Shown here: piece by piece, positions 3,002-34,778 of the stretch
Position numbering within the stretch: the first letter of the stretch is position 1
How the letters are laid out: each line of letters starts with the position of its first letter
IMG/VR virus record: IMGVR_UViG_3300021519_000032
Location: 1 to 34,778 of that record
From: a virus
Direction: 5' to 3' (one strand)
DNA: 34,778 nt
Program-made: the position numbers and the translations under genes
Notes under the pieces: model-generated
What the model saw: only the letters and a program-made list of their open reading frames with translations
What the model was told of the DNA's origin: nothing
Databases searched by the model: none

Positions 3002-3075
3002 AGTTTTCTCCTTGTGTGAATGTGTGTGTGTTAAAACACGAGCAATATTACTTAGTCATAGAAAAGACAGCCAAC

Positions 3076-3098
3076 AAAAAACCCGCCTAAGCGGGTTT
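3076..3098 (-). terminator. Intrinsic terminator
   Basis: On the minus strand an 8-bp stem AAACCCGC/GCGGGTTT with a 4-base loop (3087-3090) is followed by a run of T residues. It lies 26 bases beyond the stop of the gene at 3124-3564. The T-rich side fits minus-strand termination only. Confidence 0.9.
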
Positions 3099-3123
3099 AG
3101 TGTTTTTAAAGATAACTTTAAAA

Positions 3124-3564
3124 TTAGCTTGCTGTTGTAGCTGTTGAAGCTAAACGGAAACCAACGTCTGTTACAGTTGCGCCAGATGCATCATAGCCTG
3201 TACCAGCAACGTTAGAACCTAACGCACGGATAGCGGCTTGTAATGTAGCTGCGGTGTAAGCTGCTGTTGGATATACAGCCAATGACATGTTTGTAACGTT
3301 AGCGGTAGCAGCAACTTGATAAATTGCGACTGTCGCTGTCTGCTGAATAGTTTGCAAAATTGTCTGGATTGCTCCGTTAACACCGGCTTGGGCTGAAGGA
3401 TCAGCACCTAAGTCTACTCCGAAGAAGTCCAGTTTTGGACCCATGAAGTTAACTGGTACACCGGCTGGTGCGTATGTTGCGTTTGCTGATAACTGTGAAC
3501 CGTTAAGGGTGTCAGTTGCGAATACTGGTTGTGAACCACCTGATACTAATGGAATTGATGCCAT
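3124..3564 (-). CDS. Small virion-like hypothetical protein
   Basis: A 146-aa protein starting MASIPLVSGGSQPVFATDTL, poor in charged residues and rich in Ala, Thr, Val and Gly, with the segment GPKLDFFGVDLG near residue 43. This composition is typical of phage structural proteins. No signal peptide or enzymatic motif. GGAG stands 8 bases before the ATG, a late-promoter-like CTAAATA lies 39 bases upstream, and a strong terminator follows, so it is probably a single-gene late transcript made in large amounts. A decoration or minor structural role is inference. Confidence 0.75.
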   Translation of the reverse strand: MASIPLVSGGSQPVFATDTLNGSQLSANATYAPAGVPVNFMGPKLDFFGVDLGADPSAQAGVNGAIQTILQTIQQTATVAIYQVAATANVTNMSLAVYPTAAYTAATLQAAIRALGSNVAGTGYDASGATVTDVGFRLASTATTAS

Positions 3565-3603
3565 TTTAAATCTCCTAGTTGATGGACGCTGAGGTCCTAC
3601 TTT

Positions 3604-3610
3604 TATTTAG
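3604..3610 (-). promoter_or_regulatory. Late-promoter-like CTAAATA
   Basis: CTAAATA on the minus strand in the 79-base gap upstream of the virion-like 146-aa gene, 39 bases from its ATG. With the terminator at 3076-3098 it would define a one-gene late unit. Confidence 0.5.
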
Positions 3611-3643
3611 TCAGAAGATGAAAAATGGCTTCTATGGGTTGAA

Positions 3644-5194
3644 TTATATATAGTTTTGGCGATTGTTGCGGGTAAATTTAAGACGGTCAACCAGTTTACT
3701 GATCCCGCCGGGCGATGCCACTACCCACCCTTCGTGACCGGGCTGCTGCCTATCTAACTGCTGCAATAGGTCCATTTTAATGTCATGTAATAATACAAAT
3801 GCTGTGAAAGCCGCGCCCATTCCATCTAAATTAGAACTGGGACTCTGCAGATATTCTACAATATTTCTATATTTGCGTGGTGTTACCGCATCACGCAACC
3901 ACGTACCAAACCTCGAAATCAATGTGTCAGCAGTAAACCCTTCTTCATGTTCGCTCTGTATCACATTGTTTATGAAATCCACACATAATCTTGGGAGATC
4001 GCTTATCTGCATCTGCCTAAGTTCTGCTGGATTAAACAACGTGTCGATATCATTACCATGCATCTCTATTATACTTCGTAGTTGTTTAGTTAAATTACGG
4101 TCGCTGGGTTTAACATTATCAGTTGGTCTAACCGGATTAATAATTGATAGCCCTGGTACTGGATTAAGTTTTATATTACCAATGGGTTGTTTAGCAGCGC
4201 CATGATCTTTATAATAGGTATGTATAGCTACCCCCATATGGCTATTGGCTATGCTTTCGCCTATTTCGCTATTTGTTGGGATTTTATATTCCACAGTATT
4301 GGGCTTAAAAACTAAAGCGCCTGTGTCTTCTATGGGTTTCTCTGAGTACAGTAGATCACCATGAATAAAACCTCGAAACTTCGGAGGTACAGCTCGAGCT
4401 AACAAGGGCCATAACATTTCATATATAGGCGCCAGGTGTTCTTTACGAGTTCCCATATCATCAGCATCTCTGCCATCTAAGTGACTTACAAGATTGGCGG
4501 GATTAGAAAATAATCCATCGTATGTTTTAGCGTTATATCCACTAACATCAGTTAGTATAAATGCACCGTTTTGGTCGCGGCCAAATATAATAGCTGGTTT
4601 ACCGTCCCATTTTACCGTTGCTGAATTGGGCGCATCCTTGGACAAATGTCTAATATGAGTAAGTGCATCGGCAATCCCCGCTACACCTTTTCTAAATACT
4701 AAATCTTCAATGTGATCTATACCACGTGTTCTGCCACCGTGAATCTCGGGTAGATCAGATTCTATTAACTTCAACATGCCCCTATTAACGATACGATCAC
4801 GTAATCTAGAGAGGAAATTAATATCAGATTCGCTCTGTGGGTTGGGATTCTTTACAAAACTAAAATCAGTCTGTATAAAGCCTTTCGCAGGATTACCATT
4901 AATTGGAGTTTTAAAATAGATCTTTGACCCTGAATTTTTTACATATTCTCTTGATTTAAGCTCTTGACTATCACACCAATGGCGTAATTCGGCCATTAAC
5001 TGATCTGGGGATATTTTATTAGCGTCTATATTAAGTTCTAGTTTATGTAAACTATGCTGGTCGGCATTACTAATATTGTCCAGTAGATTTAAATCAACCA
5101 TGTGCTCAAGCCATTGCACCGTTGTCTTAATGTCCGTTTGTTCGATACGTTGGGTATCTAACTTTCCATCATTATTATTAAACACCAGATGCAT
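3644..5194 (-). CDS. Putative ATP-dependent ligase-like nucleotidyltransferase (DUF6267-like)
   Basis: A 516-aa protein. Residues 195-198 are KWDG inside TVKWDGKPAIIFGRD, matching motif I (KxDG, the lysine that carries AMP) of DNA/RNA ligases and capping enzymes. Further fitting segments are FRGFIHGDLLY (273-283, like motif III/IIIa) and VFKPNTVEYKIP (295-306, near motif IV). Ahead of the motif lies GGRTRGIDHIEDLVFRKG (153-170), which I associate with phage proteins grouped as DUF6267 that carry a KWDG(A/K)PA motif. Residues 1-150 and 310-516 are not recognised. It could join nucleic acid ends or adenylate another target. Motif I is clear; the other motifs are approximate. GGA precedes the ATG, and the gene overlaps the upstream 83-aa gene by 17 bases. 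Confidence 0.7.
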   Translation of the reverse strand: MHLVFNNNDGKLDTQRIEQTDIKTTVQWLEHMVDLNLLDNISNADQHSLHKLELNIDANKISPDQLMAELRHWCDSQELKSREYVKNSGSKIYFKTPINGNPAKGFIQTDFSFVKNPNPQSESDINFLSRLRDRIVNRGMLKLIESDLPEIHGGRTRGIDHIEDLVFRKGVAGIADALTHIRHLSKDAPNSATVKWDGKPAIIFGRDQNGAFILTDVSGYNAKTYDGLFSNPANLVSHLDGRDADDMGTRKEHLAPIYEMLWPLLARAVPPKFRGFIHGDLLYSEKPIEDTGALVFKPNTVEYKIPTNSEIGESIANSHMGVAIHTYYKDHGAAKQPIGNIKLNPVPGLSIINPVRPTDNVKPSDRNLTKQLRSIIEMHGNDIDTLFNPAELRQMQISDLPRLCVDFINNVIQSEHEEGFTADTLISRFGTWLRDAVTPRKYRNIVEYLQSPSSNLDGMGAAFTAFVLLHDIKMDLLQQLDRQQPGHEGWVVASPGGISKLVDRLKFTRNNRQNYI

Positions 5195-20139: not shown

Positions 20140-20406
20140 TTATCTTCTCCGTGGAAAAAGAGCGTACCACGCAGGTGTCCCGGGACGTATGCCCGTAGAT
20201 TTAGCATATTCAAGTTCTGGGGAAATTTTAGCCTTTTGTCTCTCGGCTGTGATACGATTGTATTCGGCTAATCGTGCTTGGCTACCTAATCCACCTAATT
20301 GCCCAGCAATCAATAATTCATGTATAGGGTCATCTGGTTCAAGGTAGCAATCATTGTCACTACTTTGCACCAAATTTTCTGTTGTAATCCTATATTGTTT
20401 AGTCAT
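20140..20406 (-). CDS. Small conserved protein upstream of terminase
   Basis: An 88-aa protein starting MTKQYRITTENLVQSSDNDCYLEPDDP and ending GIRPGTPAWYALFPRRR. From memory, small proteins with an (I/P)xPGTxxW ending lie just before the large terminase gene in T4-like marine phages. The place suggests a packaging accessory role, but no function is known to me. ATG 20406 overlaps the end of the upstream nuclease gene by 8 bases; an extra in-frame start at 20424 is possible but lies further inside that gene. Confidence 0.72.
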   Translation of the reverse strand: MTKQYRITTENLVQSSDNDCYLEPDDPIHELLIAGQLGGLGSQARLAEYNRITAERQKAKISPELEYAKSTGIRPGTPAWYALFPRRR

Positions 20407-21214
20407 TGGAACCACACTTAGCACGTTTTGCCTGTGTTAATTTACCATAATCTACGGGCCATTCTTTGCCCGGGGCTAATTCGGTAGCGGTTGTTGGGAA
20501 CGCATACTTAACCCCGGCGGTCTGCATACTCTGTACCACGGAAACACGGAATTTAGTTAGGTCATTGCCTAGATTAGGATAAGGCGCAACATGCGGAAAC
20601 TCCCATGCAGCAACTTCATTTGTTTGATTATTGATAACAATTTTGTAAAAGCCATGTGGGACAACAACCCCATTGCCAATAATCTTATTACCGGGTCCGT
20701 ACAGTCCGCCAGTTATAACAGTATATGATTGGTTAAGTTGTACTGTCCATCCACGTATAGATGCTTCCAGTAATTTCCAAATTCCACGATTCAATGACCC
20801 TGCTTGAGGGCTCATGTTGGTCATTAGAAACGATTCAAATTCAACTTGCGTATCCCAGCTTAAATCACCATCAGGTGCCATGTGTCCCTTATCATATCCA
20901 GTTGCTATGTAATCGTCGGGACGAGGCCCGTTTGGTATAGATTGGTCAGTAACAAAAGCATTAGTGCGTGCTACGCAACCCAGTGCGTTAGGTGGGGTAA
21001 GTTCGTACATTACAAACTCTGGTATTTTAGCTGCTGCGTCATATCCCACTAGGTACGCTTGTCTGCAAATTGGTTGCAGTTGTCTAGAACTTTGTGGAAA
21101 TCCGTATGGGGCATGTACTTGGCACGCCGACACTGGGTTAGGCTCACGTTGGTTCCAGGCAAATACAGTAGATGACAATACTGCTAGAAATAATACAACG
21201 ACTATTTTTTTCAT
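20399..21214 (-). CDS. Exported DNA/RNA non-specific endonuclease (NucA/NUC1 family)
   Basis: A 271-aa protein. MKKIVVVLFLAVLSSTVFA (1-19) is a classic signal peptide with an A-x-A-like end, so export to the periplasm is predicted. The nuclease motif is TGYDKGHMAP with DKGH at 108-111, a conservative variant of the usual DRGH whose His is catalytic. NMSPQAGSLNRGIWKLLE (133-150) carries the metal-binding Asn (142) and the family's Asn-x2-x-Trp pattern. The protein should cut DNA and RNA without sequence preference. ATG 21214 is chosen because it begins the signal peptide, 7 bases after the previous stop. Several Cys pairs (31, 50, 80) fit a disulphide-forming exported enzyme. Confidence 0.88.
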   Translation of the reverse strand: MKKIVVVLFLAVLSSTVFAWNQREPNPVSACQVHAPYGFPQSSRQLQPICRQAYLVGYDAAAKIPEFVMYELTPPNALGCVARTNAFVTDQSIPNGPRPDDYIATGYDKGHMAPDGDLSWDTQVEFESFLMTNMSPQAGSLNRGIWKLLEASIRGWTVQLNQSYTVITGGLYGPGNKIIGNGVVVPHGFYKIVINNQTNEVAAWEFPHVAPYPNLGNDLTKFRVSVVQSMQTAGVKYAFPTTATELAPGKEWPVDYGKLTQAKRAKCGSND

Positions 21215-21221
21215 ATTTTCT

Positions 21222-22064
21222 TTACGATCTTGGTGGTTTAAAGCGTTGTCCATTTTTTTCCCATTCAGCTTCTGCTTGTCGTCGTATTGCATCTCGTTCT
21301 GCTTCGGCCTTGGCGTCAGCTGCTCGTTTCTTGGGCAGTTCATTTTGATACCAATCAATATAACTAAGCGCAGTATTATTTAAGTACCACGCAACATCTT
21401 TATATGTTTTTAATTTTTCAAACGCCTTGGGATCTATTTTTCTAAATGGTCCATCTTTTTTAGCTATCAGTGTTTTGTTCTCTTTACCAGCAAATTTAGT
21501 GAAAAATTGTTCCAGGTCCAGCTGATAATATGTATTGCAATCGAATATTAGTTCATTTTTAATAAACTCCGTGGGCCAAGCATGTACATATGTTGCCGCC
21601 CATTTTTCTGCGTCGTCCACCATTGAGCCTGTATTATTCTGCATACGAATTCTTTCTTCTTCGGAGGGATCTAATAAAGATTGGCCACCTAGATCTACAA
21701 TCTTAGGACTCCAATAGGGTGTAACGTCATCAACAGGAATAAAGATACCTGCACGACCATGAAATTGAAATATATCGGTATGCGGGGTCATCTGCGTGAA
21801 TACCGGATATTTTATATCCAATAGGCCTAGTATTGCATCCTGCCCTCTTTTACCCATACCGCCTTTTACTCCGGCAAACTTAGTGTCACTATTATCTACT
21901 TTAAGTAGTAATACTTCTGCAACTCTATGTTTGAATGCGCGGAATAACAGCGGGTGGTTGCCTATTCGTTCGCATAGTTGTGCTGCTACCTTGATACGAT
22001 TTTTAAAATGTTCAATATCATCCGCACGATTAATTAATTCTGGTAGAAATTCTCTTGATCTCAT
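21222..22064 (-). CDS. Putative packaged head protein with capsid-targeting-like N-terminus
   Basis: A 280-aa protein starting MRSREFLPEL. The first nine residues match the layout of T4 capsid-targeting peptides (basic start, E-F, then L/I-x-E, the prohead protease cleavage site), with LPE at 7-9. The middle has GGMGKRGQDAILGLLDIKYPVF and FQFHGRAGIFIPV segments; the C-terminus (240-280) is a charged helix. No enzymatic motif is recognised. It overlaps the upstream gene by ATGA and sits directly before the exported nuclease. Packaging into the head is inferred from the N-terminus. Confidence 0.72.
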   Translation of the reverse strand: MRSREFLPELINRADDIEHFKNRIKVAAQLCERIGNHPLLFRAFKHRVAEVLLLKVDNSDTKFAGVKGGMGKRGQDAILGLLDIKYPVFTQMTPHTDIFQFHGRAGIFIPVDDVTPYWSPKIVDLGGQSLLDPSEEERIRMQNNTGSMVDDAEKWAATYVHAWPTEFIKNELIFDCNTYYQLDLEQFFTKFAGKENKTLIAKKDGPFRKIDPKAFEKLKTYKDVAWYLNNTALSYIDWYQNELPKKRAADAKAEAERDAIRRQAEAEWEKNGQRFKPPRS

Positions 22065-22462
22065 CTTCTTTTGTAACCTGTAAATGCCACCACCGGGCTA
22101 ATTTTTGCCACATCCGGCATTTCTTCACTAGTTTGGGTAGCAATACGAACGCAATCACTTGAACTCATGCCCATTGTGCGTAACGCATCGTCAATCCATT
22201 CTTCAACGTTCGGATCATAACTAACTATAATCTCATTCTCACCAAAAACACTATCTTTTTCGTAATCGGGGACGCCATCTTTTTTACGCTGTGCGCGGCC
22301 CTTGGCTCCCGCAATGGCTACTCCGAAACGATATTGTTTATAAGGATCATTATTTTGTAACTTGGGGATTTTAAATGCGCCGGGTAGTGCTAATGCTACA
22401 TCCTGTGTAATACTACCAGTTCGACCTTGTAGGTCTTCCGAAATGAATTCTTTTGCTCTCAT
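22061..22462 (-). CDS. Putative packaged head protein, paralogue A
   Basis: A 133-aa protein starting MRAKEFISED, a T4 capsid-targeting-like peptide with I-S-E at residues 7-9, and ending ISPVVAFTGYKRR. The C-terminal end is shared with the next protein upstream. Between these lie beta-like segments (YKQYRFGVAIAGAKGRAQR, EIIVSYDPNVEEWIDDAL). Function unknown. Overlaps its neighbours by ATGA on both sides. Confidence 0.75.
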   Translation of the reverse strand: MRAKEFISEDLQGRTGSITQDVALALPGAFKIPKLQNNDPYKQYRFGVAIAGAKGRAQRKKDGVPDYEKDSVFGENEIIVSYDPNVEEWIDDALRTMGMSSSDCVRIATQTSEEMPDVAKISPVVAFTGYKRR

Positions 22463-22836
22463 CGTCTTTTGTACCCTTTAAATGCTACTACTGGGCTAAT
22501 TATATACGTTGAATCCAATTCTTCACTGTCTAAATCACCATGATTTATATCTACCATGTCACTACCCACTGCCTTAAATGCTTGTTTAAGCATTTTATTT
22601 TCTTCTTTAGTGTATGGGCTAGCCGTATTATATTTGCCCACCCAACTAGCAGAATCTACTTCAAGAGGAGCATCAGTTCCGTCGGCACATGCTACCGCCA
22701 TCATTACCCGATTAAGTTCGTAAACACGATCGTATCCGCCGAAATCACGAAATTTATATAAGCCGCGTGAAGCTTTTTGGTGACGTTTGCTAATTTTGCC
22801 GGGGGCATTCTCAGCAATAAACTCACAGGCTCGCAT
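22459..22836 (-). CDS. Putative packaged head protein, paralogue B
   Basis: A 125-aa protein starting MRACEFIAEN, the closest match here to the T4 internal-protein targeting peptide (EFIAE), and ending ISPVVAFKGYKRR. The middle contains the segments GGYDRVYELNRVMMAVACADG and WVGKYNTASPYTKEE, which I associate with a widespread unknown family in marine and large phages. The weak ribosome binding site contrasts with the strong one of the upstream gene. A head-packaged role is inferred from the N-terminus. Confidence 0.76.
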   Translation of the reverse strand: MRACEFIAENAPGKISKRHQKASRGLYKFRDFGGYDRVYELNRVMMAVACADGTDAPLEVDSASWVGKYNTASPYTKEENKMLKQAFKAVGSDMVDINHGDLDSEELDSTYIISPVVAFKGYKRR

Positions 22837-22838
22837 AA

Positions 22839-23327
22839 TTAGCTTTGCCCGTTTACGCCTGCGGTAGCAGATGAAGCAGTTCCTAATTCACGAGCAGTAA
22901 AGTTAGCACCAGTGATAGTCAAATAATTACCGGCACCAACAAAAATCTGTTGACGGCCATTAGCTGACACTTGTGGTGCAGCAGAATATAAATTACCGTT
23001 AGGCGGAGTTGTTACAGTAAAGACATTAGTAGCATTTGCTGTAGCATTAGCACTGATTGTTACACTGGTAAATGGAATCTGTGAAGCTATAGTTGCCCCG
23101 CCTGGAATTCCTGTGCCAGAAATTGCGCTACCAGCAGGCAATGCCATTGCTGCGCTGGTGGTAATAACTTTACTAAGATTGGCAGTAGTGCCACTAAATG
23201 TAATTTGTGGTGGCAACGCAACCTGATAAATGTTGTATGTAACAGCGGTATTGCCTGTTACAATTTCACATTTATCAGTGTACCAAATTACATTTGATGC
23301 TGATGTTAGTACGTTTGCCTGTGACAT
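22839..23327 (-). CDS. Small virion-like protein with GTGIP repeat motif
   Basis: A 162-aa protein starting MSQANVLTSASNVIWYTDKC. It is Thr/Ala/Gly-rich and poor in charge, with the motif GSAISGTGIPGGATIASQ followed by VTISANATANATNVFTV; this GTGIP/ATA motif recurs in many phage tail and adhesion proteins. The C-terminus is GQS. The ATG overlaps the stop of the 1463-aa gene as TAATG, with GGAAGGG just before it, so translation is coupled. Structural role inferred from composition and place. Confidence 0.75.
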   Translation of the reverse strand: MSQANVLTSASNVIWYTDKCEIVTGNTAVTYNIYQVALPPQITFSGTTANLSKVITTSAAMALPAGSAISGTGIPGGATIASQIPFTSVTISANATANATNVFTVTTPPNGNLYSAAPQVSANGRQQIFVGAGNYLTITGANFTARELGTASSATAGVNGQS

Positions 23328-26300
23328 TACCCTTCCTTATTTTCTATCGCAGAAATAGTTTTATACAAATCTACCATACGCTGCCCTTCGGATACATGAC
23401 TATGTAAACGTTTGACTTGACTTGCCACAACGGGAGTCGTTGTCTGCCCAGATGATTTAGCACCGTTCAATCCACCTGACAGATTTTGTGTCATCATCCG
23501 TGTATCAGCTTTAACCTGATTAGTTGGATAATCTGGAGCGTTTTTTGTAACCGGAGCAACAGCTTCTGCAATACCAGCTAACTCACGTAAACGTTGGTTT
23601 TCTGAGTTACGTTGTATTGATTCCGACGTTGGTGCATTAGCTTGCGAGCCTGTATACTGTTGATCAGCCAATTTTTTCGCAACATTTTTACTGTCAGTAC
23701 TGGCAAACATACCTATCTCTTCCGGTTGCCACATTGGGGTAGTATTGCTCACAGTTCTTTTATATGTATAACGTTTACCTTTGATCCAGTATGGAACCTT
23801 TTTGTCAGCTTGCATTGGGATTTCTTCTGGTGAAGTTACCTCGGTAGCGTTACCGAATTCATTCTGCATACTTTGTGCAATTTGATCATTAGTTCCCGCA
23901 GTAGGCATACCAGGTCCCCCTGTGCTTGGGCCGTCGGAGGAATCGGCTGTTGCAGCCGCCATGTTGGCTGCATCAACATCAGCACCGGTACCACCACCGG
24001 CGCCGCTCGTAGTCGGACCGTCAGCGGCGTTGGCAACAGCAGCAGCTTGTGCAGAATTGTTAGCCCTGTTAAGGGCTGCTTGCATAGCGCGGCCGTCGTC
24101 GGCATCAGCAGCATCGGCACTTGCGCCAGCTTGATCTGCACCACTACTAGCTGTGCTACCTGTTGGGAATAACCCATTATACTGGTTAAGTAAAGAACTG
24201 AGTTCTGGATCGGGTTGTTCTGTACTACCTAACTCCTTGTACAGAGCCTCTATTTCTTTCTTTTCATCAGGAGTCAAATCTTCCAGCAATCTCATTTTGT
24301 TAAGGAAATAACTTATGCTTTCAGGCACACCAGTAACAGGGGCGGTGTCGGGATTAACCGGTCCGCCTTGGGTTTCTGGGCTACGTCCATTGCCAGCGTC
24401 GGTAGGATTAGGTGCAGCACGTTCGCGTGCTTTAGCCAATAGTGCTTTGAATTTTGCTATCTTATCAGCTTGAGACGTAGCGGCAGGTGGAGTAGGTGCT
24501 GGTCTACCTTGTTGTTCTGGGCTTACATTTTGTCCATTAACCCTACCAGCTTGTGCTGACATTGCTGCTTTAGACTCCGGTCCCCACACGCCATCAACTG
24601 CAACTTTTAATTCTCCTTGTTTCTTCATAACTGCGGCTTTAGTTTGTGGGCCAAAGTCACCATCCGCCGGTTTAATTCCTAGCAGATTCTGTAAGGCAGT
24701 AACTTCTGGACCTTTGCTACCTACAGCTAACAAACCACCAGCTGCTGCTGGTGCTGCTGGTTTTGCTGCCGCTGCTGGTGCCGCTGCGGCTGGTGCCGCT
24801 GCTGGTGCTGCGCCTGCTCCGGTAGCTGCGCCTACCCCCGGTGCTTTTGCTGCCACAGGCTTACCACCGTTTGGCGCACGACTAAGAATTAAAGGATCCA
24901 ACGGATTAGCATGTCCCAAGAATTTTTGATCTGCTGGGCTCATTTTAGAATAAGCCTGTGCCTGTGGGCTACCTGCTGGCCAAGGACCGTTTGGGCCAGG
25001 AGGTACAGGTGCCGATGGTGGAAATGTTTCAGCCTCGCCGACAGCCTCATCTATTTCTATGAAATCGGAAGGCATACCTTGCGATCCGTGCATGTGTTCT
25101 GCACCATCATCGCCGCCAACACCCATGCCGTGCAGTAATTCTTTAATACGAGCAACGTCATCACCACTTACATCGATAGTAATGGTTTCATCTTCTTCAC
25201 CATCGTCACCTTTGACTGAATTAGTTGTGATATTAATACTTTCAGATAACATGTTGTTATACTTGCGATTCCAGGAATCGTAAATACCTTTGCCCACGGT
25301 AGAACCACCTGCAGATTTACCACCTGCTGCTGGCGCCACTGAACCGGAAGTTGTAGTTTCTTCAACTTTCTTTTCTTTTTTATCTTTCTTTTTACCGCCT
25401 TCTTCATCCTTACCCAAACGACCAGCAACCACATCACCTCGTGTTACTTTGTCATAGGGTTTAGCATTATTGGCTAAGTTACCATCGCCTTTGCCCTCTT
25501 CTGTCTTCTTGGCTGGCTTATCACCTTCCTTGGCTTTTTTAGCTGTTTTATCACTGCCCTTGGCCGGTGCAGCAGGTTTGTCTGGTGACTTAGACTTGTT
25601 GGCTTTGATAGCTTTGTCTACTGACCCAGCATGTTCTGCTTTGCCTGATTCTTTTTTGCCATCATCATCGTAATCTACCTTAGACTTAGCACCGCCAACT
25701 ACTTTGGCTATACCGGCTGCTTTTCTAGCAGCAGGCGCTACGTTATTTACAAAATGACCCATGCCCTGCTTTACAGCTTCTAGGTCAATCTCACGACCCC
25801 GGCCATGCCCTGGCATTGATTGACCACAATGTGGGCATTCGTCAAGATCTTCATCCATTTCTTTTGAACGAGCGTGCTTAGGAACGTGTGTGCCGGCTAA
25901 ACGGGCACCGCCACCGCCTTTACTACCAGCAGGACGTCCACGCTTACGTGGGCCATCTGAACTTGCTACTGGTTTTTCAACTTCATCGCTGTCAAATGGA
26001 ACTTCTTTGCGCTTACGTGTGTACACCGTTCCACCAGCTGGGCTGCTACCACGACTAAATGCAGAGTCTAAATCAGCAGTTGGCTTTCCAAATTTTGAAT
26101 CATATTCATCTGATCCTGGGAACATGCTTCCTTCAAATTCCATGCCATTGTGTGCATCAGCAGCACCCGAACGGCCATTGTATGGGCGGCTGGTTGCACG
26201 CGATTTTGGATTAGCTGGCGCAATTTTATTTTTTAAATAAGACAAAATATCATCTTCTGACTCATCTAGTGGCTTAGGTTTACTACCGGATGCCACGACT

Positions 26301-27718
26301 TCGTAATCATCAGGATCAGTATCGAAATGTTTTCCACATAGTCTGTCTATCGCATGGCCTACCGATTGCCCAAGAACATTTCTTGCTACTAATTTCCAGG
26401 ACGGCATTCCATGGCGTTCGGTCCACATATAAATGTCTTTCAACTCATTATAGTCATGTGTTTCGTCTAGGTCAGTCATAACTGGCGGTTTGCCAGAATC
26501 CATTCCAGAGATTCTACGTGAATTTTGTATGTCTCTTTTTTCTTTACCTAATCGACGGCTGTGTCCGGATATCCAGGCATCGGTAAATTTGTCGTTTTTC
26601 GGATTCATATCTTTTGGTTGTTCACCGTGCATATCACATTCTCCCATGGCACATTCTGCACATCCTTCATATCCTTCATATTCAGCTTTGCGAATATCTT
26701 TTGTCGGATAATCAAGTTCATCGTTACGTGACTGATGATCTTCGGGATCATAGCCATAACCTCTGCCATGAATACCTCTTTCACCTCGACGCATAGAAAA
26801 ATCAGTGTAGTCGCCGGAATTACTAGATTTTCTTCTAGGTGTATGCTTATGTGTTGGCTCACCTTGTTGAATTTTTCCACCCTTGGCAAGAAAAGCAGCT
26901 ACTGGATCATCTGCCTCGTCTTTATTTTCGTATAATTTATCATGGGCCAACTGATTTATTTCATCGTATTGTTCGTCATTTAATTGATCTATTTCATCGT
27001 CAGTTAATGGAGTTCCATCCGCAAATTCTGCATATTCTATATATGCATCAGCAAAATCAGGATAATCTCTGGTATCAACGCCACCCATTTCTATGCTACT
27101 ACGATCAATTGGATGCCCATTAAGAGTCATGCCCGATGCTTGGTGCGAGTGATGGTGAGATTCTCCCATACCTTGTTGGCCAGCTTTTGCTCGGGCTTCT
27201 TCTCTAGTAGGGCTGAATCCTTCTGCTCGTGCTTGTGCGTGTTGTCTAGGATAAACTGATGCTTTCATTAACTTACCATCTATAACGATATACCAGTCTG
27301 ATGGATCTAGATCATGCCGCTCATCATCTTCACGATCTCTAGCGCCGCCTACCCCACGGAAACCACGGCCTGCTTCATCAACTTTTTTCTTACCTTTGCC
27401 TTGTATGTTAAGGGCAAAGTTAGCACGTTTCTTTTCTAGAGGAGTACCCGATTTCTTAAGACTGTTTAATTTTTTGTCGCCAATTTTCTTGTCTTGTGGA
27501 ATACCTTCTTGCTTATGTAAGGCACCTTTCTTAACTGTCTTGGCAGCTTTGCTCAAGGATTTATCTTCCATAAGACTACGTAGGTCAGTACGTAATGCTT
27601 CTTCAAATGTCTGTTTAGCAGGTGACTTAGCAGCAACAGTTCGTGTTTCAACTAATGGTGCCTTGGGTTCAGCACCGATGCCGGTTAGTCTTTTGTTTAG
27701 GTCATAAAATGGGTTCAT
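23327..27718 (-). CDS. Giant multi-module phage protein with peptidoglycan-binding domain
   Basis: A 1463-aa protein. N-terminal region with KKGALHKQEGIPQDKKIG (64-80). His-rich ESHHHSHQ (186-193). Cys cluster CAECAMGEC (353-361). AT-hook-like KRGRPAGSK (592-600). Zinc-knuckle-like CPHCGQ (628-633). EF-hand-like DYDDDGKKES (682-691). Lys-rich spacer (700-785). Ala/Pro linker (952-993). A peptidoglycan-binding type 1 domain (about 995-1057) with GSKGPEVTALQNLLG, DGDFGPQTKAAV and a second VDGVWGPESKAAM half. LRELAGIAEAV at 1377-1387. No lytic catalytic domain is seen, so it is not an endolysin. It could be a head-internal or ejected protein that touches DNA and cell wall (inference). AAAGGA precedes the ATG. 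Confidence 0.8.
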   Translation of the reverse strand: MNPFYDLNKRLTGIGAEPKAPLVETRTVAAKSPAKQTFEEALRTDLRSLMEDKSLSKAAKTVKKGALHKQEGIPQDKKIGDKKLNSLKKSGTPLEKKRANFALNIQGKGKKKVDEAGRGFRGVGGARDREDDERHDLDPSDWYIVIDGKLMKASVYPRQHAQARAEGFSPTREEARAKAGQQGMGESHHHSHQASGMTLNGHPIDRSSIEMGGVDTRDYPDFADAYIEYAEFADGTPLTDDEIDQLNDEQYDEINQLAHDKLYENKDEADDPVAAFLAKGGKIQQGEPTHKHTPRRKSSNSGDYTDFSMRRGERGIHGRGYGYDPEDHQSRNDELDYPTKDIRKAEYEGYEGCAECAMGECDMHGEQPKDMNPKNDKFTDAWISGHSRRLGKEKRDIQNSRRISGMDSGKPPVMTDLDETHDYNELKDIYMWTERHGMPSWKLVARNVLGQSVGHAIDRLCGKHFDTDPDDYEVVASGSKPKPLDESEDDILSYLKNKIAPANPKSRATSRPYNGRSGAADAHNGMEFEGSMFPGSDEYDSKFGKPTADLDSAFSRGSSPAGGTVYTRKRKEVPFDSDEVEKPVASSDGPRKRGRPAGSKGGGGARLAGTHVPKHARSKEMDEDLDECPHCGQSMPGHGRGREIDLEAVKQGMGHFVNNVAPAARKAAGIAKVVGGAKSKVDYDDDGKKESGKAEHAGSVDKAIKANKSKSPDKPAAPAKGSDKTAKKAKEGDKPAKKTEEGKGDGNLANNAKPYDKVTRGDVVAGRLGKDEEGGKKKDKKEKKVEETTTSGSVAPAAGGKSAGGSTVGKGIYDSWNRKYNNMLSESINITTNSVKGDDGEEDETITIDVSGDDVARIKELLHGMGVGGDDGAEHMHGSQGMPSDFIEIDEAVGEAETFPPSAPVPPGPNGPWPAGSPQAQAYSKMSPADQKFLGHANPLDPLILSRAPNGGKPVAAKAPGVGAATGAGAAPAAAPAAAAPAAAAKPAAPAAAGGLLAVGSKGPEVTALQNLLGIKPADGDFGPQTKAAVMKKQGELKVAVDGVWGPESKAAMSAQAGRVNGQNVSPEQQGRPAPTPPAATSQADKIAKFKALLAKARERAAPNPTDAGNGRSPETQGGPVNPDTAPVTGVPESISYFLNKMRLLEDLTPDEKKEIEALYKELGSTEQPDPELSSLLNQYNGLFPTGSTASSGADQAGASADAADADDGRAMQAALNRANNSAQAAAVANAADGPTTSGAGGGTGADVDAANMAAATADSSDGPSTGGPGMPTAGTNDQIAQSMQNEFGNATEVTSPEEIPMQADKKVPYWIKGKRYTYKRTVSNTTPMWQPEEIGMFASTDSKNVAKKLADQQYTGSQANAPTSESIQRNSENQRLRELAGIAEAVAPVTKNAPDYPTNQVKADTRMMTQNLSGGLNGAKSSGQTTTPVVASQVKRLHSHVSEGQRMVDLYKTISAIENKEG

Positions 27719-27723
27719 TACTA

Positions 27724-28335
27724 TTATCCTTTAGTTTTTGCGCCGGTTGCTGGGCGTTTGGGTCTTTTTTCTGCATGAGTTAGTGGACTAGTATTGCCCA
27801 TTTTCAAGTCATTCGTTGTTTCCGCTGCCTTAGGGCTACCACCGGCAATAGTAAAGTTTGAACGATATGCATTTTTTAATACAGCATGATCATACGGGTC
27901 AGCCGAATAATCTTTCTTCTGTTCTTTCTGTGCTTTATCATCTGCTGGATAATCAGTATCATCTAATAATGATGGCGGTTGATCTGCCAGTTTTTTCTGA
28001 TAGTCATCGTTATTGTCGTCATATACAGATGTCTGCATAACGATTTTATTTTCATCTAACCCAAGCAAGCGAGCAATCTGTTTGATCTGTGGCTCAATTG
28101 CTGGGTAACGAAACATAACATCTATACTGGTGACTTTATCGTTTTCAAACGCTGGAAAATCAGCAGGCTTCGCTTGTATGGGAGTGGATTTTTCAGTACC
28201 AATTTTAAGTGGATCAAATTGTTCCAGCCGTCCCTTCAGCGCATCGTAGAAACCCGAGGGCAATTCACCTACTATCTTAATGCGATAGTTATAGGTTCTT
28301 TCGCTTTCTGCCAAATACTCTTTAAAATTTTTCAT
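27724..28335 (-). CDS. Putative packaged head protein with capsid-targeting-like N-terminus
   Basis: A 203-aa protein starting MKNFKEYLAESER, very close to the T4 internal-protein start MKTYQEFIAEA, with L-A-E at 8-10 as the predicted prohead protease site. Next comes a folded domain with YRIKIVGELPSGF and KSTPIQAKPADFPAF, reminiscent of an unknown family in marine phages. The C-terminal third is Lys/Asp/Pro-rich and probably disordered. AGGA lies before the ATG and a CATAAATAT element 17 bases upstream, so late expression is likely. It directly precedes the giant 1463-aa gene. Confidence 0.78.
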   Translation of the reverse strand: MKNFKEYLAESERTYNYRIKIVGELPSGFYDALKGRLEQFDPLKIGTEKSTPIQAKPADFPAFENDKVTSIDVMFRYPAIEPQIKQIARLLGLDENKIVMQTSVYDDNNDDYQKKLADQPPSLLDDTDYPADDKAQKEQKKDYSADPYDHAVLKNAYRSNFTIAGGSPKAAETTNDLKMGNTSPLTHAEKRPKRPATGAKTKG

Positions 28336-31690: not shown

Positions 31691-34600
31691 TTAAGCAGCA
31701 GCCTGCGCCGCAATTGCCCCAGTGTTTTGAATACGTAATGGAATATAAATAAATTCCACTGCTTTAACTGGCTCAATTGCAATATCAACCCATAACTGAT
31801 TCTGATCAATTGTTGTTGGTGTGTTATTAGTATTATCACATACCACCAGATAATCATAAAGACCACGTTTAGCCACCAGGTCAATCATCAAACTTACAAT
31901 TGTATTGCTGATTTCAGTACGTGTAATTTGATCATTAGGTTCAAACAGATATTGTTTACCAATTTGGCTAAGTCGAGTACGTAAGTAACATACTAAACGA
32001 GCTACGTTGATACGATCCAATGCAGTAGCAGTTCCCTGTAATGTTTTGTTACCAAAGTTAGTAATACCCACACCTGGAATAAAGGTAATTGGGTTAATAT
32101 TGTTTGGATACAATACATCACGCAGAGCTTGACCCACGCTCAAGGTTTCAAACGCCCCAGTAGTAGGACTTACATAGCCTAATTGGAATGCATTGTCGAC
32201 TAATCCACGGCGTGTACCTGCAGGTGCTAACCAGGGGTAAGCAACTTCATCACTGCGGATAATCGTACGGATCATCATATGACTTGGGTACGTAACTGCA
32301 TCATTGCCAGTTAAATCAGTAGTCATACAACTTGGATAGAACGTTGCACCGTAACTATCACCTGTTGCCAAGTTACCGTCACCGTTTGGTAATCCTAATC
32401 CATTATTATTAGTTGCCCAGTTAGCGATGGTATTGGGTGTTAAGCGTAATGGTGTATCAATAATGCTAAATGCCACATTATTAATTTCATTGCTCAGTGC
32501 AACCATATTTAACGCACACTCTGGATAACCAGTAACTGCAATCAGGTTATATGAGTTTTGCTCTTCACGGATCTGTGTATTTGTTTCCAGTGCCGTATTC
32601 ATAGCAGCAACAATAATTGCTCGCTGTGAGTGACGTCCCATATAGGGTGCGCCATCAGGGCGGTTACCAGTAGCCGAAACCCATGTATTAGTTACCGTTT
32701 GGATAGACCAATACGTAGGACTTGTATCAGGAGTATCGTTAGTGCTATTTTCAATACACGCATACACAATATTATTATATTGAACATATTGACCAATAGT
32801 GTATGTAGTAGTTGACGACCAGTCGTAAGTTGGATATGCTTGATTATTCCAAGCATTTAATTCAAAGGTTTTAACATTGAATCCTGAACGACGAGTATTC
32901 CATAATAGAATACCGGTTGGTGACAGGTCTGCATTAGGTGCATCTGGATCCAGGTAATTGCTGGTTAACAAACTTGTGATTGATGGCAATGCATCACTTA
33001 CTGGATCTGTTGTGCCATTAGGTGCCCACCGTGCATCAGCGAATATAATTCCGCTTGATTCTGTTGCATCTGCATTGTTAAGTTGTACCCATTGTGGCAC
33101 ACCGCTAACATTTTCCCAACGATATAATGCTGGATAGTTTTCCAAATCGTTTGAATCAACCCATAAGTCCCCATATACTAACGGACTTTGTGATTGGTCT
33201 GTTTGTGTCGTTGGCGCATTAGTACTGATAATAGGACCGGCAGCATTACATAGTGTTAAGTTATACCCACGAGCATCAGAAGTCACTGTTTGGTAACCGA
33301 CCCATTCACCGTTGTTCTGGATCATAATGTCAACCTGTGTGGGATCGCTGTAATACCAGTATGTACCGGTAGCAGGATTCTCATTTGGAGTCGAATTAGA
33401 TGCAACGTAAGTAAACGTTGGATCGCTTACCCAGTTACTTAATCTGATACCAGAGGTAATTCCATTAATGTAGTTTTGGCTACATAGGAATGTACTGGTT
33501 GTAAAGCCCGCTGTGGTAATAGGGGTGCCGGTAACATTGGTAAGAACAATATCGCCGCCTGCGCTATGTGTGAACACAATAGCACCTGTACTGGCGATAG
33601 TAGCACTAACGTAAGGAATAGCCGCAGAACTCACCGCTGATATAAAATCACTTGGTGTGGTCCCTGATATTGTGCAGGTTATTGCGTTAGTATTATTAGC
33701 TGTTCCTGGTTGTGTTGCTATAATAGTAAATTGATTTCCCGACACAAATGTTTGGGTAGTTTCATCACCAGTAACAATAGTTGGTCCTGCTACGTAGCGT
33801 TCATAAATTGTAAATCCAGCAGTACCATTATCGAATGGGTCGTATCGACCGTATAACGTGCCAGCAGCGATATTTTCACCACCACCCGATGGGTCCAATC
33901 CGTAAATTGCCAGTCCATTATTAGCATAATTGGTCACTGGTTGGACAACAAATATACCCAGTGTTGCATTGAATTTTTTTACCACTAGGTTTGCACCTTT
34001 ATTCACTGCATTGGTTTTCTGCCATACAGATCCCGTTACTCCAATAGCAGATGCCCCACCCTGACTCCATGTAGGAACTTGGTAGCTGGGCGATGCTTGG
34101 TAGAATGGAATATAATGTGTACCTGCTGTGATACCCAATGTAGTAAGAACTGTTCCCGACCCAGCGGCTATAACAACTGTTCCGGTAGGAGCACCAACAC
34201 TACCGCCACTGGTATAAGATGTAGTGATGGTAGCAGCATAGCTTACAGATGTTGTTGTACATGCGGTAACTGTATAGTATCCATTGTATCCTGACGGAGT
34301 AATATTGCTTACAGAAACTTTGCTACCAATTGCATACGGAGCACTGGCCTGAGTGGCAAATGTTACGGTTGCAGTAGTGCCGTCGCCCGATGCGCCAGTT
34401 ATTGCAAGGGTTGATCCAGCTGCGGTGTCATCAGCATAAATGCTTAGTTGGCCACCTACATTACCTGCATATACGCCAACTAAAGCAGCAGAAGTAATCG
34501 CATTAGCGATACCAGTAACTGTATTATTTGTACTTGCCGGAACCGTAATAACTGTGCCGTTAACTAGGAATGTTTCTGCGGCAGTTATACTTGAAGGTGT

Positions 34601-34778
34601 GTTAACACCCTGTACTGTTGTCCAGGCAGATTGCCATTCAGTACTACCCAATAATACCCATGTATTGTATAGAGTATTAATTCTAGAATCGTTTGATTGA
34701 GTAGATGTTGGGCCGCCACGTTTAAAATAAACGGGATTAGAAGTATATGTTGCTGTTACGGCATAATTTCCAATACTA
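31691..34778 (-). CDS. gp18: Tail sheath protein gp18, very large, 5' end outside window
   Basis: The frame is open to the right edge (1028 codons visible), so the N-terminus is missing; a TTG at 34651 is internal, because the frame continues upstream. The C-terminal 330 residues are a clear sheath domain (SIIDTPLRLTPNTIANW; NKTLQGTATALDRINVARL; AIEPVKAVEFIYIPLRI). Sheath contracts to drive the tube through the envelope. Much longer than T4 gp18 (659 aa): counting from 34651, extra modules are an Ig-like repeat (86-152), a second beta region (297-385) and a CBM-like module (609-650, about 32702-32827). These probably form surface domains on the tail. Confidence 0.95.
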   Translation of the reverse strand, partial: SIGNYAVTATYTSNPVYFKRGGPTSTQSNDSRINTLYNTWVLLGSTEWQSAWTTVQGVNTPSSITAAETFLVNGTVITVPASTNNTVTGIANAITSAALVGVYAGNVGGQLSIYADDTAAGSTLAITGASGDGTTATVTFATQASAPYAIGSKVSVSNITPSGYNGYYTVTACTTTSVSYAATITTSYTSGGSVGAPTGTVVIAAGSGTVLTTLGITAGTHYIPFYQASPSYQVPTWSQGGASAIGVTGSVWQKTNAVNKGANLVVKKFNATLGIFVVQPVTNYANNGLAIYGLDPSGGGENIAAGTLYGRYDPFDNGTAGFTIYERYVAGPTIVTGDETTQTFVSGNQFTIIATQPGTANNTNAITCTISGTTPSDFISAVSSAAIPYVSATIASTGAIVFTHSAGGDIVLTNVTGTPITTAGFTTSTFLCSQNYINGITSGIRLSNWVSDPTFTYVASNSTPNENPATGTYWYYSDPTQVDIMIQNNGEWVGYQTVTSDARGYNLTLCNAAGPIISTNAPTTQTDQSQSPLVYGDLWVDSNDLENYPALYRWENVSGVPQWVQLNNADATESSGIIFADARWAPNGTTDPVSDALPSITSLLTSNYLDPDAPNADLSPTGILLWNTRRSGFNVKTFELNAWNNQAYPTYDWSSTTTYTIGQYVQYNNIVYACIENSTNDTPDTSPTYWSIQTVTNTWVSATGNRPDGAPYMGRHSQRAIIVAAMNTALETNTQIREEQNSYNLIAVTGYPECALNMVALSNEINNVAFSIIDTPLRLTPNTIANWATNNNGLGLPNGDGNLATGDSYGATFYPSCMTTDLTGNDAVTYPSHMMIRTIIRSDEVAYPWLAPAGTRRGLVDNAFQLGYVSPTTGAFETLSVGQALRDVLYPNNINPITFIPGVGITNFGNKTLQGTATALDRINVARLVCYLRTRLSQIGKQYLFEPNDQITRTEISNTIVSLMIDLVAKRGLYDYLVVCDNTNNTPTTIDQNQLWVDIAIEPVKAVEFIYIPLRIQNTGAIAAQAAA

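Follow-up and report, generated by a model that had tools for sequence, protein, structure and literature searches.

A predicted CBM5/12-fold module inserted in the contractile tail sheath of an uncultivated virus

Chitin-binding folds and accessory sheath domains

In CBM5 modules the ligand is bound by two adjacent, exposed aromatic residues that hardly vary, with a third nearby; two other aromatics, Y265 and W299 in CjCBM5, form the hydrophobic core (PMC8449059). A fold of this kind is also found in virions: in T4, molecules of a capsomer are bridged by a chitin-binding-like insertion of the capsid protein (PMC3185693). Tail sheaths have accessory domains of their own. Mostly Ig-like and common in large phages, they are inserted outside the conserved sheath core, and the survey describing them mentions no chitin-binding domain (PMC9230969). 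In AlgoCIS, CBMs are present in the baseplate protein Alg11 and not in the sheath. A literature search found no report of a CBM5/12-fold domain, or of a carbohydrate-binding module, in a phage sheath.

The window considered here, i.e. the whole 34,778-nucleotide stretch of viral DNA that was analysed, is probably a fragment of an uncultivated viral genome. No relative turned up when contigs of bacterial and archaeal genomes were scanned. A sequence-only reading of the window had proposed that its tail sheath carries a chitin-binding-like module and that such modules could form a glycan-binding coat along the tail. As described below, the module is well supported and the coat is not.

The sheath gene and its CBM5/12 module

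The sheath gene occupies positions 31,691 to 34,777 (minus strand). Its 5' end is lost at the window edge, where the reading frame is still open, and 1028 of about 1212 residues are present. In profile searches the protein matches phrog_10581 (E 6.6e-142) and Phage_sheath_1C (E 7.8e-13), which bears out the assignment of the module to a tail sheath. The conserved sheath C-terminal domain (PF17482; 31,730 to 32,023, minus strand), detected by profile match, is the only such domain found in the record, and tail-tube-like genes are located downstream of the sheath gene. The phrog_10581 and PF17482 matches, along with the core fold in the model of a full-length relative (L051, see below), identify the module-bearing protein as a contractile-tail sheath. 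The sheaths of relatives start some 185 residues further upstream, e.g. with MSSTLVSPGV in L002. The initial numbering of the module as residues 609-650, counted from the TTG at 34,651, therefore does not reflect the true gene start; by comparison with these relatives, the module would lie near residues 836-877 of a sheath of about 1212 amino acids.

As first delimited, the module spans 32,702 to 32,827 (minus strand), an interval that encodes the peptide originally quoted letter for letter (YDWSSTTTYTIGQYVQYNNIVYACIENSTNDTPDTSPTYWSI; YDWSS...YWSI). Alignment of relatives with and without the module, together with their tree, places its limits at 32,699 to 32,833 (minus strand; PTYDW...YWSIQ), i.e. 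residues 649-693 of the 1028 present. A 57-residue segment scores 32.1 bits against Pfam CBM_5_12 (PF02839), above the curated cut-off of 26.2 bits, and the whole protein 25.2 bits, slightly below it. When the 34.8-kb record was searched with CBM_5_12, the module scored 31.9 bits (E 6.1e-9) and no second site was found. Across an alignment of 29 sheath modules, seven positions (W5, Y11, G14, Y16, V17, Y24 and W45) do not vary, and a profile of the sheath modules, compared with solved structures, has the chitin-binding domain of ChiA1 (1ED7) as its top match (E 9.5e-6).

Folded alone as a 52-residue model, the module reaches a mean pLDDT of 86.7. The structures most similar to it in Foldseek are chitinase C 1wvv (TMq 0.81), 4tx8 (0.76), 2d49 (0.76) and 1ed7 (0.64); the top of the list consists mostly of CBM5/12 domains of chitinases and deacetylases, and a small number of fibre and baseplate proteins of phages also appear there. 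The corresponding E-values are no better than about 0.006-0.01, owing to the very small size of the domain. Structure comparison with VIA also places CBM5/12 domains best, with Z up to 8.1. The Pfam score of the segment and the closeness of the module-only model to the chitin-binding domains of chitinases thus agree with what had been read from the letters, and the CBM5/12 label is right for both fold and sequence family, the fold being established at the level of prediction.

Some other genes of the window deserve mention. A DNA/RNA non-specific endonuclease with a putative signal peptide (Endonuclease_NS, E 5.3e-38) is encoded at 20,399 to 21,358, and a 1463-residue protein at 23,327 to 27,718, among virion genes, has a PG_binding_1 peptidoglycan-binding domain at residues 1004-1053 (both minus strand). 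Four ORFs on the same strand (21,222 to 22,064, 22,061 to 22,462, 22,459 to 22,836 and 27,724 to 28,335) begin with a similar N-terminal tag, MR-x-x-EF-[IL]-x-E or MKNFKEYLAE, which presumably recalls the T4 capsid-targeting sequence.

Insertion, distribution and position of the module

A scan of IMG/VR for relatives yielded 79 related viral loci, in whose alignment the module appears as a clean insertion of about 38 residues at the tip of one β-hairpin. The region measures 57-58 residues in many sister sheaths without the module and 96 in those with it. The flanks, NVKTFE...YP and TNTWV.A.G.R.DG.PYMGR.AQR, are identical in both forms, and are either joined by a short loop or parted by the module. 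In the window the upstream strand and linker of the acceptor hairpin are encoded at 32,834 to 32,878 (NVKTFELNAWNNQAY) and the downstream linker and strand at 32,651 to 32,698 (TVTNTWVSATGNRPDG), both on the minus strand. Across sheaths (L081-L084, L071 and L073) this hairpin differs in length; it is a tight turn in RaK2 and a long loop in others, with up to nearly 60 extra residues, so that it looks like a permissive insertion site, judging from the alignment.

A quick tree of the sheath core, computed without the columns of the module, groups 28 module-bearing sheaths in one clade (support 99), none of whose members has lost the module; one further sheath, L045, lies apart and has a diverged module. 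This tree requires two changes to account for the distribution, but the AU test does not reject a single clade (p 0.218). Sister sheaths have no such module, and it is also lacking in Atu_ph07, Paride, SCTP-2 and RaK2, the four relatives among isolates that were examined. In Atu_ph07 (MF403008.1; L085-L087), CBM_5_12 matches below the cut-off are found in frames of 4450 and 1199 residues. For the sheath core the pN/pS ratio is 0.18-0.22, for the module it is 0.36, and the accessory part at the N terminus has 0.39-0.44; these ratios are rough since pS, at about 0.6, is near saturation. Purifying selection acts on the module, and a ratio above that of the core and below that of the N-terminal accessory part suggests a module that is kept, yet evolves like an exposed part.

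The place of the module on the sheath was approached with L051, a full-length relative of 1136 residues whose aligned part shares 78% identity with the sheath protein of the window. In its model, built from an alignment of 51 sequences (mean pLDDT 80.4, pTM 0.61), the module takes up residues 757-801 or thereabouts, at a pLDDT of about 81-90. It lies at the tip of the hairpin whose two arms in the window are given above, with strand 742-747 before it and strand 806-809 after it. Over about 300 core residues the model matches solved sheaths, with Z of 25.3 to 9f4a and 22.5 to T4 gp18 (3j2m). From the order of secondary structures and a weak MAFFT alignment, the acceptor hairpin corresponds to about residues 322-344 of gp18; hhalign of the hairpin stretch onto gp18 gave no mapping. 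The gp18 fragment 83-365 is solvent exposed (PMC3004832) and accessory sheath domains generally lie away from the tube (PMC9230969). It is therefore likely that the module is displayed on the sheath surface, in its outer half, and the outer location assumed at the outset is probably right, as far as a single-chain model and these parallels allow. Each of the 10 records searched has one sheath C-terminal domain, so the module is probably carried by every sheath subunit.

Outside sheaths, the nearest modules in IMG/VR are found in fibre-type proteins (phrog_5073, phrog_9851; L135-L141), several of which have collagen-like or β-helix parts. Most of them share the signature Y-[AV]-C-I-x-N-[NS]-T-N...YW, at 40-48% identity to the window module. 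One tail-fibre protein, at 3059 to 4510 (plus strand) of L141, contains six CBM_5_12 stretches totalling 113 bits. In fibres the module lies near the protein start or proximally, and not at the distal tip, namely from residue 12-28 onward in L137-L140, at 71-120 in 9rkv and at 137-187 in 8kec; its place is thus often the virion-proximal end. Among the matches listed from GenBank phages (the 60 best of 144 at E<=1, and 60 spread over 254 at E<=10), named features are usually a tail fibre or a carbohydrate-binding protein, and none is annotated as a sheath. Because the nearest non-sheath modules reside in fibre proteins, recruitment from a fibre gene would be the simplest origin, the direction of transfer being a supposition.

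A virion protein encoded near the sheath, of phrog_11591, has a CBM5/12-like insertion of its own (L016, 160 to 1518, minus strand; also L030, L008, L007, L014, L036 and L096). It shows the spacing W...Y..G..V..G..YY.A...P...YW, is missing in distant relatives and scores 14.5-17.7 bits, which is below the Pfam cut-off and unreported by hmmscan at E 0.01. This second cassette-like insertion tentatively suggests that the lineage of the window may have accepted such cassettes more than once.

Role of the module and comparison with known systems

The residues of the module speak against the most obvious function. Aromatics are found at the positions of the CBM5 pair in none of the 31 sheath modules and none of the six fibre modules aligned, and Y11 and W45, which are invariant in the sheath module, are by spacing the equivalents of the core residues Y265 and W299 of CjCBM5. 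The pattern W...Y..G..V.Y....Y.A...N....P..W, from which a chitin-binding-like module had been read, is indeed of CBM5/12 type, but it consists mainly of equivalents of hydrophobic-core rather than sugar-contact residues. Trp687, which we take to be the key binding residue of the ChiA1 CBM12, falls in a three-residue stretch that the sheath module lacks. With neither the exposed aromatic pair nor Trp687, the marks of a functional chitin-binding CBM5 or CBM12, the module is unlikely to bind chitin. All 31 sheath modules have Tyr at position 16 (Y19 in the 52-residue model), which is not the case for the fibre modules. Such a sheath-specific residue would fit docking, and it would equally fit a new ligand site.

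This led to the proposal that the module probably serves as a surface or connector element, borrowed from elsewhere, and not as a chitin binder. The sheath would have acquired, at the tip of a β-hairpin, a CBM5/12-fold cassette such as phage tail fibres commonly contain, and each subunit would then show one copy on the outer half of the sheath. There the module might touch neighbouring subunits, the accessory domains or fibres lying folded alongside the tail. To this reading, in which the module makes protein contacts or braces the tail as a non-chitin-binding accessory piece, we give about an even chance. It is favoured by the loss of the contact residues and by the virion-proximal place of the module in fibres, and the bridging of subunits by the chitin-binding-like insertion of the T4 capsid makes a structural role the better guess.

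The proposed coat, whose modules would weakly bind host capsule, lipopolysaccharide or environmental polysaccharide and gain avidity from their many copies, an idea already put forward for Hoc and Ig-like sheath domains, is the main alternative, possible but doubtful. It draws on the CBM5/12 fold itself, on the tail-fibre proteins that hold the closest non-sheath modules, one with six copies (L141), and on the many copies expected from a single sheath gene per searched record; carbohydrate binding has been suggested for the Ig-like accessory domains of sheaths (PMC9230969). However, no sheath module, and none of the six fibre modules in the alignment, has the chitin-contact aromatics, so that this claim, as originally made, goes unsupported, and the carbohydrate-binding module of the A-1(L) neck fibre did not bind its host (PMC10966104). 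The comparison with Hoc is an analogy only. In a narrower form, the many copies would make the sheath a lectin-like coat with a redesigned site, e.g. around the invariant Tyr, for a glycan other than chitin, and this coat would aid attachment to, or lingering on, polysaccharide before the fibres engage; this we regard as unlikely.

It is quite improbable that the module is a tolerated passenger, gained by recombination at a permissive hairpin tip and persisting without strong function. The range of lengths at this site, from the tight turn of RaK2 to nearly 60 extra residues, the close sheath relatives that do without the module and its faster evolution relative to the sheath core would all suit a passenger, but seven invariant positions have been kept, purifying selection is evident (pN/pS 0.36) and loss has not occurred within the clade of 28. 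That the segment is an integral piece of the buried sheath core, near which it lies in sequence, is scarcely credible given that related sheaths are wholly without it and have intact flanks, that the model matches some 300 core residues of solved sheaths having no such module, and that its likely T4 equivalent lies within the exposed 83-365 fragment (PMC3004832).

A surface or connector role, if correct, has a wider bearing: a phage protein annotated with a CBM does not necessarily bind sugar. Close relatives with and without the module provide a clean test case for glycan binding versus tail bracing.

Compared with known systems, the sheath module resembles CBM5 and CBM12 (PF02839; ChiA1 1ED7, ChiC 2D49, CjLPMO10A 6Z40) in length, predicted fold, core aromatics and profile match; unlike these modules of enzymes, it has neither the exposed aromatic pair nor the Trp687 loop and is housed in a phage sheath. 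The fibre modules are likewise without the aromatic pair, but they are N-terminal in L137-L140 instead of being set in a hairpin, and they lack the Tyr at position 16. The chitin-binding-like insertion of T4 gp24 (1YUE) is a similar fold within a repeating virion protein; that protein, however, belongs to the capsid and not the sheath, the structural match is weak (VIA Z 5.0) and no sequence match was seen. Hoc is a separate decoration protein on the virion surface, whereas the module forms part of the sheath polypeptide, into which it is inserted as a loop, and the likeness to Hoc drawn in the sequence-only reading does not hold in this respect. A parallel in placement is offered by the accessory sheath domains (PMC9230969), which are also inserted outside the conserved core; they are mostly Ig-like, and the module is a CBM5/12 fold of about 45 residues. 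Accessory domains were thus already known in phage sheaths; the CBM5/12 fold, of which we found no earlier report there, joins them, and a module type common in phage fibres is now seen in a new place, the tail sheath.
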